Positions 45,823 through 51,518 of a stretch of 64,000 nucleotides of DNA are shown piece by piece. The notes beneath the pieces are model-generated. The model saw nothing but the letters and a program-made list of their open reading frames with translations. It was not told the origin of the DNA and did not search any database. The first letter of the stretch is position 1, and each line of letters starts with the position of its first letter. Position numbers and translations under genes: made by a program. Source of the stretch: Allostella vacuolata. Lineage in GTDB: Bacteria > Pseudomonadota > Alphaproteobacteria > ATCC43930 > Allostellaceae. The stretch lies in the NCBI GenBank assembly GCA_006739055.1, contig AP019702.1:2939388-3003387 (forward strand), given 5' to 3'.

Positions 45823-45897
45823 GGGCGATTAGCTCAGCGGTAGAGCGTCTCGTTTACACCGAGAGGGTCGGCGGTTCGAACCCGTCATCGCCCACCA
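45823..45897 (+). tRNA. tRNA-Val (anticodon TAC)
   Basis: 75 bases with encoded CCA. Acceptor GGGCGAT/ATCGCCC, anticodon stem TCTCG/CGAGA around TTTACAC, T arm GGTTCGAACCC. The 3' end borders the disturbed region, so it could have been an old integration site. Confidence 0.97.
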
Positions 45898-46052
45898 CCC
45901 GCCCTCTGCCGGCCGCCCATCTGCCGGGTCGACCAGGAGCGTGCCCGGCGAACGATTCCGCTGCCCGCCGCCATTCGGCATGTCCGCTCCCGGAACCCAT
46001 CTCTCGCCGCGTCGTTGGCCCCTGCAAGACACGGCAGCCCGCGGGAGGCAGA

Positions 46053-46259
46053 ATTGCCGCGACCACCGACAACGTGATCCGGGCGATCGATATCGAGACT
46101 GGCGACACGCTGTGGCAGGATGTCCTGCCGGCGGGCGGCCAGGCGACGCCGATGACCTATGAGGCGGGCGGGCGGCAGTATCTCGTCACCATGGCGGGCG
46201 GCCATCACTTCATGGAAACGCCGATCGGGGACGAGCTCGTCGCGTACGCGTTGGCCTGA
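46053..46259 (+). pseudogene. C-terminal fragment of a PQQ-dependent dehydrogenase
   Basis: About 68 codons. From IAATTDNVIRAIDIETGDTL through LPAGGQATPMTY to a final GDELVAYALA it matches the last propeller blade of membrane-bound PQQ glucose/quinate dehydrogenases. Nothing upstream belongs to such an enzyme, so the 700-residue front is missing. A relic of a deletion or of an earlier island near tRNA-Val. Confidence 0.75.
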
Positions 46260-46322
46260 CGTAGGCCCTGCCGTGACGACAGGCGCGGGCAGGCGCCGGA
46301 CGAGGAGGGCAGGCGTGGACGA

Positions 46323-46955
46323 ATGTTGAGCCTGTTCGAGCTCCTGGCGGCGCTGCTCACGCTGACCGCCCTCTTCGGGTGGATCAACCACCGCTTCCTG
46401 CGCCTGCCCGCCAACATCGGCATGCTGGTGATGGCCCTGGCCGCCTCGCTGATGCTGATCGCCACCGAGTTCGCGTTCCCGCGCACGCCGCTGTACGGCC
46501 TGCTGGCCGGGGCGGTGGGCCAGATCGATTTCTACGAGGCGGTGATGCACGGCATGCTGGGTTTCCTGCTGTTCGCGGGCGCCCTGCATGTCGATCTCGA
46601 GGACCTGCGGAACCGCGCGGTGACCATCGCGATCCTCGCCTCCCTCGGGGTCGTGATCTCGATGGCGGTCGTCGCGGTCGGCCTGTGGGTGATCGCCGGC
46701 TGGCTTGGCATGCCGCTGCCCTTCGCCTGGTGCCTCGTCTTCGGCGCGCTGATCGCGCCCACCGACCCGGTCGCGGTGCTGAGCACGCTGCGCCAGGTCC
46801 GGGTGCCGCCGGCCCTGCGGACCGACATGACCGGCGAGTCGCTCTTCAACGACGGGGTCGGGGTCGTTCTCTTCACCCTGGCGGTGTCCGCGGCGGTCCA
46901 GGGCCCCGGCGAAGTCGGCGTGCCGGGCATGGTGCGCCTGCTGCTGTCCCAGCCG
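46323..46955 (+). pseudogene. Na+/H+ antiporter (NhaP/CPA1 type), truncated by the integrated element
   Basis: About 211 codons of the front half. Starts LSLFELLAALLTLTALFGWI; the transport core LLFAGALHVDLEDLRNRAV and the TDPVAVL motif (GALIAPTDPVAVLSTLRQV), then GESLFNDGVGVVLFTLAVS, are intact. Homology stops after VRLLLSQ, near 46950, where reverse-strand recombinase sequence begins. The remaining half, with four to six membrane helices, is absent from the window. The frame stays open to 47423 by chance, reading antisense recombinase. Confidence 0.85.
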
Positions 46956-46975
46956 CCGCTCGATGCCGAAGCTGG
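46941..46975. other. Left attachment-site junction of the integrated element
   Basis: Antiporter homology ends and recombinase homology (reverse strand) begins within this interval; the exact crossover cannot be fixed without the other end. The recombinase gene loses its 3' part at the same point. Confidence 0.6.
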
Positions 46976-47708
46976 GCGCCTCGACATACCCCGCATAGAC
47001 ACACTGCCGGAGCAGCACCGTGACCCGCTCGTTGCAGACGCGCCCGCTGGTCTCCGGCTTCGGGAACAGGGGATGGTCCTGGAGGAAGCGCATCACGTCG
47101 GCCTGGGACTCGAAGTGGCCCGCGGCATAGCCTTCGAGGGCTTCCTGGACGACCGAGGCGGCCGGCTCGTCGCGCTTCAGCATCTTCCCGCGGCCGGGCA
47201 CGGTCACGTACTTGTAGCCGACCGGCGCCTGGAACACCCAGTAGCCGTTCATGACCCGGGCGCTCATGCGGTTCTTCACCTGCTCGCCGTTCTTCTGGCG
47301 CTGGTGCTGCGAGACGCTGGCGAGCAGGTTCTCGACCAGGATCGAGTCCGAGTCCTCGCCGAACTCGATGGAGGGGGATTCCAGGTTGCCGCCGGCCTTG
47401 GCGATGGCGCCGCGCAGTTCTAGGTGGGCCTGGAGGCCGCGGGCCAGGCGCGAGACATCGTCGATGATGACGACGGTGCCCTTGGCGCGGCGGCCGCGCA
47501 GGAAGGCCAGCATGGACTTCATGCCGGGCCGGTCGATGAGGCTGCCGGAGACGTCGTCGCGGAACACCTCGACGACGGCATAGCCCTTCATGCGGGCGAA
47601 CTCGCGGCAGCGGGTCTCCTGCGAGTTCAGGCCGTCGCCGACCTTGGTCTGCTTGATGCTCGATACGCGGCAGTAGATGACCGCCTGCTTCTGCTCCCTG
47701 TCCGTCAT
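46953..47708 (-). CDS. Large serine recombinase, 3'-truncated at the junction
   Basis: About 250 residues remain. The resolvase domain has the catalytic serine in VIYCRVSSIKQ, the EFARMKG helix, and VIIDDVSRLARGL; the recombinase domain follows to CVYAGYVEAPSFGI. The zinc-ribbon and coiled-coil parts expected afterwards are missing: past that point the open frame reads the antisense strand of the antiporter and is not protein-like. Starts inside the stop of the small upstream gene (ATGA), so translation is coupled. In the excised circle the gene would probably be whole. Confidence 0.85.
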
Positions 47709-49501: not shown

Positions 49502-49797
49502 CGCACGCCCCCGTGGAAGAGACGGAACGGCGGGCAGTGGCCGTCGGTGACGACACGGAACCCGTCGAAGCCGAGATAGACGCAGCGGTGATAGACCGGC
49601 CGCTCGCGCGAGCCGGTGAAGCTGTACTCGAAGCGCAGGTAGGGCGTGCCGAACGCATGGTTGGCAACCACCACACTTCCGATCACGACGAGCCACACAA
49701 GGCTACGCAGCCGCACCGGCGGCACGCGACGCGGGCGGGGCGGCTTGGCCGGCGGCGGAGCCGCCGGCACGCCTTCGAGGCGCATCTCGTCCGTCAT
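49498..49797 (-). CDS. Small membrane protein of the conjugative operon
   Basis: 99 aa. Proline-rich cytoplasmic lead, one membrane helix (LRSLVWLVVIGSVVVANHAF) and a short external domain with two cysteines. Sits between the coupling protein and the basic protein, with ATGA overlaps on both sides. Function unknown. Confidence 0.55.
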   Translation of the reverse strand: MTDEMRLEGVPAAPPPAKPPRPRRVPPVRLRSLVWLVVIGSVVVANHAFGTPYLRFEYSFTGSRERPVYHRCVYLGFDGFRVVTDGHCPPFRLFHGGVR

Positions 49798-51518
49798 GGC
49801 GTCCTCGTCGGATAATGGATGCGGAAGAGGGGATCGCCGCGCAGGCGCTTGCCCTCGATCGGGTTGTCCAGCACCCAGTCCCGCCAGGGCTCGACCTGGC
49901 CGTAGTGAACCAGGGTCAGGCGCATCGGCCGCAGCCCCTGCACGAACACCCACGCCTCGCCGCGCGGCATGGCGAGCACCTCGTCCGGCGTCATCAGCCG
50001 GCGCCCCAGCTCGCGGCTGGAGACGCCGAGGTCGGTCACCACCGAGCGGAAGGAATAGTCCTGCTTGCGGATGGTCGCCTCGGACAGCATGTCCGAGACG
50101 TGCTTGGCGCGGGCATAGCTGTTGAGGCTGCCGTAGACCTTGACCCCAGCGTAGGAGTCGATCGCTTCGGCCGCCTCGCGGCCCTCCTTGCGCACCAGCC
50201 CGGCATAGCTTTGGACGTAGAAGTCGGCGGTGATGCCGAGGCCGCGCATGGTCTCCAGGTCGGAGACGAGGTCGGCGAAGCGATAGTTCAGCGCCTCCTC
50301 GCCGACGATATGGATCGGCAGGCCGTCTGGCCGATCCTTGCAGGCGGCCACGAGGTTGTAGGCCTGCAGTGAGGTCAGCATTGCGAAGTCGCGGCTGTGG
50401 CTGAGCGGTGTCTGCAGGAAGGCGACGATCGGCCGCTCGCGCAGCTCGGCGATGCCCTGGTCGGCCGTCCGGCCATAGCCGGCGAGCCGGCCGCCCTGGT
50501 TGAAGGGCAGCAGCGCCTGCGTCGCCATCTCCAGGAAGGCGCCGAAGTTCTCCGGGTTGTGCTTCGCGCGATGCAGGAGGTTGGCCGCCTCGGTCTTGAG
50601 GAAGGCGACGATCGGATCGTTCGGGACCGCGGTCTCCAGGTTCCGGGCGACCCAGGACAGCATCTTCATGAGCCGCGGCGGATCGTTCAGGATCGCGAAC
50701 ACGTCGGCGGGCGTGCAGCGGGCGGGCTCGGTCAGCGCGCGCGTCAGCGTGACGAAGCCGATGCAGCGACGGGAGCCGCCGTTGAAGAAGACATCCTTGC
50801 TGTCGCTGCGCTTGTCGGGGATGAGAAGGGCGGCTACATCGGCCGTGCGCTTGATCGCGTCCATGCGGGTTTCGTCCTCGGCATAGACGGCGTCGAGAAC
50901 GGACTGGAGCGGGTTGAGCTCTACGTTGCCGCAGCGATCGAGATGGCGGCCCGTCGGGTTGACGCACCAGACCTCGAAGCCCTGCTGGCGCAGGCCAGGC
51001 GCCAGCATCGGCCCCAGCTCCAGCTTGGGGTCGGCGATGACAACGGACTTCGGACGCCCGCCGCGGGTGAGGTAGACTTGGTGGAGGATCGAGGCGACCA
51101 CCAGCCGGCTGGTCTTGCCGCCGCCGGGCGGCATCTCGACCAGGCTGAACGGGGCATCGGCGGGTGCGAACACCGGCCGCTGCCCCTGATACAGGCCGAG
51201 GAAGTTGCCGCTGGCCGGCATGTCCATGCCGCGGGCGCGGATATCATCCCAGGTCGCTTCCCGCGCCGTGCCGTGGTCGCTGGTGACGGCTTCCGCGCGG
51301 GCGAGGTCGCGGCGGAGGCGATAGTCGCGGACGAGGAGGATGAGGCCCTTGGCGAGGCAGGCGGCAGCGCACAGCGCCGCCGCCCCCGCCATCGCCGCCT
51401 GCTGCCAGGGCGCGTCCGGGGCCGGCCACAGCCACCAGGTGATGGCTGCGGCCGTCACCGCGACGGCGAGGTTGCCGTTGATCGGCCCCGTCGCCGTGCG
51501 GACCGGCACCGTGGTCAT
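49794..51518 (-). CDS. Type IV coupling protein (VirD4/TraG family)
   Basis: 574 aa. Two N-terminal membrane segments (about residues 17-62) then the hexameric ATPase domain: Walker A MPPGGGKTS (about residue 130), VIADPKLEL, and the region corresponding to Walker B, IHIVGEEALNYR, in which the usual aspartate before Glu is replaced by Gly-Glu; FYVQSYAGL follows as in VirD4. It would deliver the DNA-relaxase complex to the conjugation channel. Shorter at the C-terminus than VirD4, and no relaxase gene is in view. Confidence 0.85.
   Translation of the reverse strand: MTTVPVRTATGPINGNLAVAVTAAAITWWLWPAPDAPWQQAAMAGAAALCAAACLAKGLILLVRDYRLRRDLARAEAVTSDHGTAREATWDDIRARGMDMPASGNFLGLYQGQRPVFAPADAPFSLVEMPPGGGKTSRLVVASILHQVYLTRGGRPKSVVIADPKLELGPMLAPGLRQQGFEVWCVNPTGRHLDRCGNVELNPLQSVLDAVYAEDETRMDAIKRTADVAALLIPDKRSDSKDVFFNGGSRRCIGFVTLTRALTEPARCTPADVFAILNDPPRLMKMLSWVARNLETAVPNDPIVAFLKTEAANLLHRAKHNPENFGAFLEMATQALLPFNQGGRLAGYGRTADQGIAELRERPIVAFLQTPLSHSRDFAMLTSLQAYNLVAACKDRPDGLPIHIVGEEALNYRFADLVSDLETMRGLGITADFYVQSYAGLVRKEGREAAEAIDSYAGVKVYGSLNSYARAKHVSDMLSEATIRKQDYSFRSVVTDLGVSSRELGRRLMTPDEVLAMPRGEAWVFVQGLRPMRLTLVHYGQVEPWRDWVLDNPIEGKRLRGDPLFRIHYPTRTP

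Follow-up and report, generated by a model that had tools for sequence, protein, structure and literature searches.

The window, a stretch of 64,000 nucleotides of Allostella vacuolata (G000:C1:2939388-3003387 of a complete 5.83-Mb genome), contains a point at which the first half of an Na+/H+ antiporter gene on the plus strand meets a fragment of a large serine recombinase gene on the minus strand. This raises the question of whether a mobile element was inserted here by a crossover inside its own recombinase gene. The earlier note proposed that integration cuts the gene at this place, removing the zinc-ribbon and coiled-coil end, and that excision restores it.

The starting observation, that both homologies are lost within the same 35 bases, was confirmed and could be narrowed to the 14 bp from 46942 to 46955. 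Identity of the antiporter to a copy 37 kb away stops at 46955, and identity of the recombinase to a sister element of 37 kb in a congener (G002) starts at 2986329, that is window 46942, as does identity to a paralog at 5.18 Mb. The microhomology at the junction was read from a three-way alignment of the window, the G002 recombinase and the native antiporter. An ORF of 607 aa (45885-47708) is the run-on of the recombinase, antisense to the antiporter. The remnant matches PF00239 only, with no match to PF07508 or to the Zn ribbon PF13408, and is 81% identical to residues 3-255 of the paralog protein P0001, in which all three domains are present. The end of the recombinase domain, the Zn ribbon, the coiled coil and the 3' att region are missing from the window copy. 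The features are listed in Table 1. The small gene directly upstream of the recombinase was also found by tblastn in about 20 of 27 relatives, in G002 and in the paralog, and may encode a directionality factor or regulator.

Table 1. Features around the antiporter/recombinase junction (window positions unless stated otherwise).
Feature	Position	Strand	Basis or remark
tRNA-Val(tac), intact	45823..45897	+	ARAGORN
Attachment core, tRNA-Val 3' end, GCCCACCA (complement TGGTGGGC)	45890..45897		repeated at element right end, genome 3022513
Left copy of 1066-bp duplicated block	45890..46955		tRNA-Val 3' end, PQQ-dehydrogenase remnant, antiporter first half
Na+/H+ exchanger gene, 5' part, cut at junction	46323..46947	+	PF00999; full-length gene right of element, L002 1935-3184
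Antiporter/recombinase junction	46942..46955		2-6 bp microhomology
Large serine recombinase fragment, codons 1-255	46944..47708	-	PF00239
Conserved gene of ~100 aa, overlapping recombinase start codon	47705..48016	-	tblastn; no Pfam match
VirD4/TraG-type coupling protein of element	49794..51518	-	PF02534, PF12696

If the crossover had taken place at the junction, the right end of the element should carry the 3' part of the recombinase joined to the rest of the antiporter. This end lies 37 kb from the junction, beyond the window, and abuts a tRNA-Val 3' end. The second copy of the duplicated block (99%, genome 3022513-3023578) opens precisely with the final bases of tRNA-Val, GCCCACCACC, and continues into a complete antiporter. 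Immediately to its left, on the minus strand, a mobC-like gene and a relaxase ORF (relaxase homologue, 3020688-3021980) were found, and the right end of the element holds no Zn-ribbon or coiled-coil sequence. An attachment site in the middle of the gene therefore fails for the window junction.

In congeners tRNA-Val and tRNA-Asp are separated by about 140 bp without any insert, as against 44 kb in this genome. The interval here also holds a cluster resembling pqq biosynthesis genes (L010 193-4716) together with the antiporter, and in three congeners the whole interval is absent from this place. The left side of the element resembles an unoccupied site, with tRNA-Val, flank and the 5' half of the antiporter, followed by codon 255 of the recombinase. 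The two copies of the block differ at 11 positions, counted over the shared part before the last few junction bases; all lie at or after 46517, in the last 40%, and the first 627 bp are identical. Since the mismatches are clustered in this way and the majority are synonymous, they point to a second natural allele rather than to decay.

On these grounds the recombinase in the window appears to have been broken, and probably killed, by a rearrangement outside the att site, which left the 1,066-bp duplication. A mobilizable element would first have integrated at the 3' end of tRNA-Val by means of its large serine recombinase. Then, in an exchange with a chromosome carrying an empty copy of the region, either unequal or illegitimate with help from homology, the antiporter would have been joined to recombinase codon 255, the 3' part of the recombinase removed together with the left end of the element, and the duplication left behind. 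This exchange would account for the junction in one step. What counts against it is a motif in the native antiporter close to the junction, an att-core-like TGGTGCGC with TTCGA behind it, spaced as in the tRNA attB sites (L002 2541-2562; window 46930-46937). Only 17 sites of this type occur in the 5.83-Mb genome, four of them at tRNA attachment sites. The orientation of the antiporter motif and the bases kept beyond its core are, however, inconsistent with a crossover. Taken as one joint statement, we consider it quite likely that the junction arose by exchange with an empty site and that the family carries attP inside the recombinase gene.

The same motif allows for the possibility that the recombinase acted off-target on the antiporter, by a break or an aberrant exchange, and that the ends were trimmed afterwards. 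For a motif of this kind to occur by chance no more than about 20 bp from the junction, the probability is close to 1e-4, a value judged post hoc, but the motif has the wrong orientation for joining the antiporter 5' part to the recombinase end, 4-6 bp past the core are retained, and a further deletion of about 750 bp would have to be assumed, so that we regard this course of events as rather unlikely. A regular site-specific crossover at the junction, with attP in the middle of the recombinase gene and attB in the antiporter, has the 14-bp meeting of the homologies and the rare motif in its favor but is hardly credible, as it is contradicted by the element right end with its complete antiporter and no recombinase 3' part, by relatives in which the crossover takes place at the 3' end of a tRNA gene, about 250 codons beyond this point, and by the motif orientation and retained bases, which conflict with a conservative crossover.

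Among the intact members of the family, the G002 sister element is inserted in tRNA-Met, and tRNA-Arg holds the paralog element of about 11.7 kb at 5.18 Mb. Both have complete recombinases, and no stop interrupts their frames before these enter the antisense strand of the tRNA 3' end. A third family copy in the genome (447.3-466.7 kb; L082, L081) occupies the tRNA-Met locus that is occupied in G002; its recombinase is deleted and its right-end tail is intact. A scan of genome contigs yielded 27 alphaproteobacterial relatives with 52-71% identity. In most of them ARAGORN detected a complete tRNA gene at the end with the recombinase, and only the tRNA 3' half in a few. Six relatives with both ends on one contig define elements of 5-25 kb. 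An intact element is also present in Jiella pelagia HL-NP1, at 3,871,521-3,887,254. Among 385 genomes of the class the exact-core pattern gave one decayed site.

The core is TGGYGCRC, with TGGTGGGC in the Val and Met copies. The recombinase ORF is open across it in a single phase in 23 relatives (all with a readable attL, leaving aside the joined copy described below), in G002 and in the paralog. In attL, A stands to the left of the core in nearly all cases, its counterpart in attR follows the flank, and several elements have a different R of the core in attL than in attR; these differences place the crossover within TGGYGC. Counted from the start of the core, the motif TTCGAAC lies at +18 in the tRNA arm of attL (19/19) and at +23 in the tail arm of attR (23/23). 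In large serine integrases the zinc-ribbon motif lies 5 bp further from the crossover in attP than in attB (PMC3783163), and this outward shift of TTCGAAC is seen here, in one arm only. Close to the core, a TTC and a TTA codon of the recombinase do not vary (26/26), so that a DNA-level constraint also acts there; the conserved phase may partly reflect it and alone does not prove a fused protein. A second TTCGAAC at -65 and an invariant TTCAAG..TTAGG at -39 to -26 from the core lie inside the recombinase coding sequence in all relatives, and are possibly additional binding sites of the recombinase or of an accessory protein. Recombinases about 50% identical were also found on three IMG/VR contigs (L148, L150, L152), in frame into tRNA-like antisense sequence, which in L150 and L152 is tRNA-Ala; the arrangement may thus be older and more widespread.

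The other end of the elements supplies the sequence that would follow the core in the circular form. At the right end of the window element the minus strand codes for (G)LDNDTSNQLFDVLGDWNTYLERRKSSDFLVPPCP, overlapping the start of mobC, and close variants of LDNDTSNQLFDVLGDWNTYLERRKSSDFLVPPCP are encoded by the paralog and the third copy. With a profile made from three tails, a tail adjoining mobC was detected in the genomes of 24 of the 27 relatives. It comprises 33-39 codons after the core and overlaps the mobC start by 10-38 nt (23/23), and in every case examined the recombinase and tail frames are continuous when joined at the core. Counted with the core, the run-on at the tRNA side is between 12 and 469 residues long. 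The predicted tail frame is free of stops in all 26 tails, whereas the other two frames contain stops in 22 and 25 of them, and over the 15 codons beyond the attP arm pN/pS is 0.34 in the predicted frame compared to 1.22 and 1.69 in the others. By these measures the tail is under purifying selection. As any host sequence may precede the core in attR, this selection most plausibly acts while the tail is attached to the recombinase in the circular form.

One natural joined copy was found, in a tandem array of Acuticoccus kalidii (L057). Here the recombinase, core and tail form an uninterrupted reading frame, followed by an overlapping mobC-like gene, the relaxase and a second recombinase that ends in tRNA-Arg. 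The 5' end of the first recombinase is interrupted by an IS, and the junction is exactly as predicted for the circle. No further joined (circular) form was present among the plasmids, phages and viral contigs searched: L145, the sole viral contig matching the pattern, proved to be another attR, and L153 resembles a joined form but has an unrelated tail. AlphaFold modelled the joined protein from L057 with a mean pLDDT of 66 and values below 50 in the tail, and the model is uninformative on the role of the tail.

The tail might instead be a small separate gene, a leader of mobC starting from an NTG in the att core, the shared frame being due to chance or a by-product of the att spacing. Of 26 attR cores, 16 indeed provide ATG and the others GTG, TTG or CTG, and the overlap with mobC is what a leader peptide would show. 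Nevertheless, after integration the upstream DNA is arbitrary host sequence without a conserved ribosome-binding site, none of the recombinases has a stop before the core, and the joined ORF exists in L057; a separate gene is thus an unlikely explanation. The continuous frame and conservation of the tail, the joined copy and the 5-bp spacing together argue that in the intact elements attP lies inside the serine recombinase gene.

What can be read from the sequences is the anatomy, the frame, the conservation, the spacing and the one natural joined copy. On this basis the gene order in the circle would be recombinase, core, tail, overlapping mobC and then relaxase. A crossover in the core would join the recombinase body to the tRNA antisense strand (attL) and, in attR, leave tail, mobC and relaxase next to the opposite flank. 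At the level of sequence, integration accordingly swaps the selected tail for tRNA-antisense sequence and parts the recombinase from mobC and the relaxase, and excision would restore both, so that the integration state sets the C-terminus of the enzyme and its contiguity with the transfer genes. The idea that integration changes the form of the recombinase thus fails at the window junction and holds for the intact relatives, where the core is inside the gene, ~35-40 codons from its end in the circular form. It is a short C-terminal tail that would be exchanged; the Zn ribbon and coiled coil stay in place, every known recombinase domain being intact in the relatives in the attL state.

A fused recombinase-tail protein would presumably be made in the circle, the exchange of the C-terminus may alter the direction of recombination or the stability of the enzyme, and the overlap with mobC may couple the transfer genes to excision. 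A more specific proposal, which we put forward only tentatively and hold to be doubtful, is that the C-terminus senses the state. The native tail would favor integration (attP x attB), and the antisense-tailed form would be shifted to excision or inactive without a classical directionality factor; excision would fuse recombinase, mobC and relaxase into an operon, turning on the transfer genes only in the circle. An attP inside the recombinase gene would in itself offer a simple and testable route by which integration state could be written into both the enzyme C-terminus and operon structure. Serine integrases are in wide use as genome tools, and tail variants from nature, with a possible effect on directionality, would be of value.

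In alphaproteobacteria, anti-phage genes are part of the cargo of the family. In the window element a gene for a SIR2-like protein is followed by herA (PADLOC HerA, 1039 bits) at genome 3003007-3006515, from near window 63620 (L009 428-2512), probably an anti-phage pair, and a second gene of SIR2/PDC-S65 type lies at 3018745-3020550. The 5.18-Mb paralog element contains a CBASS-like pair of a 2TM effector (PADLOC) and a nucleotidyltransferase-like gene (L011 15251-17019).

Like the serine-recombinase integrative and mobilizable elements (PMC5704250), the family combines a recombinase at one end with MobC and relaxase, a coupling protein and accessory cargo. The relaxase in L057 matches PF03432, and NikA/MobC-like genes are present both there and at the right end of the element in the window. 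In difference to other such elements, recombinase, tail and mobC would form one overlapping array in the circle only. The architecture of Resolvase, Recombinase, Zn-ribbon and coiled-coil parts is that of the large serine integrases (LI/A118, phiC31, Bxb1; PMC3783163); P0001 has these domains and long helices in its model, and the window copy keeps PF00239 only. The family differs from these integrases by an attP that apparently lies within the coding sequence and by tRNA 3' ends (Val, Met, Arg) as attB. A search of open-licence full texts gave no example of a serine integrase gene that contains its own attP, and the nearest case was a Paracoccus phage with a serine recombinase assigned to a tRNA-Met site (PMC6536676).

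According to a review of 2021, recombinases that disrupt their own gene occur in archaea only (PMC8371274), a statement that a bacterial serine recombinase with attP in its own gene would contradict. In the 'suicidal' archaeal tyrosine integrases of the SSV1 type the att site also lies in the integrase gene, which is split by integration into a tRNA gene and restored by excision (PMC8371274), and the intact relatives likewise have the core inside the coding sequence. Their enzyme, however, is a bacterial large serine recombinase with a PF00239 resolvase domain instead of the tyrosine fold, and only a short C-terminal tail would be exchanged, whereas the catalytic, DNA-binding and coiled-coil parts stay together, so that integration need not be suicidal. 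In the integration-dependent immunity of mycobacteriophage BPs, attP lies in a regulatory gene and the C-terminus of the product is 33 residues shorter in the prophage (PMC4557955); there the gene encodes the repressor and the tail is an ssrA-like degradation tag, whereas here the gene is that of the recombinase itself. The family would thus work like the SSV1 integrases and the BPs switch, and as its enzyme is a bacterial serine recombinase it is a member of neither class.
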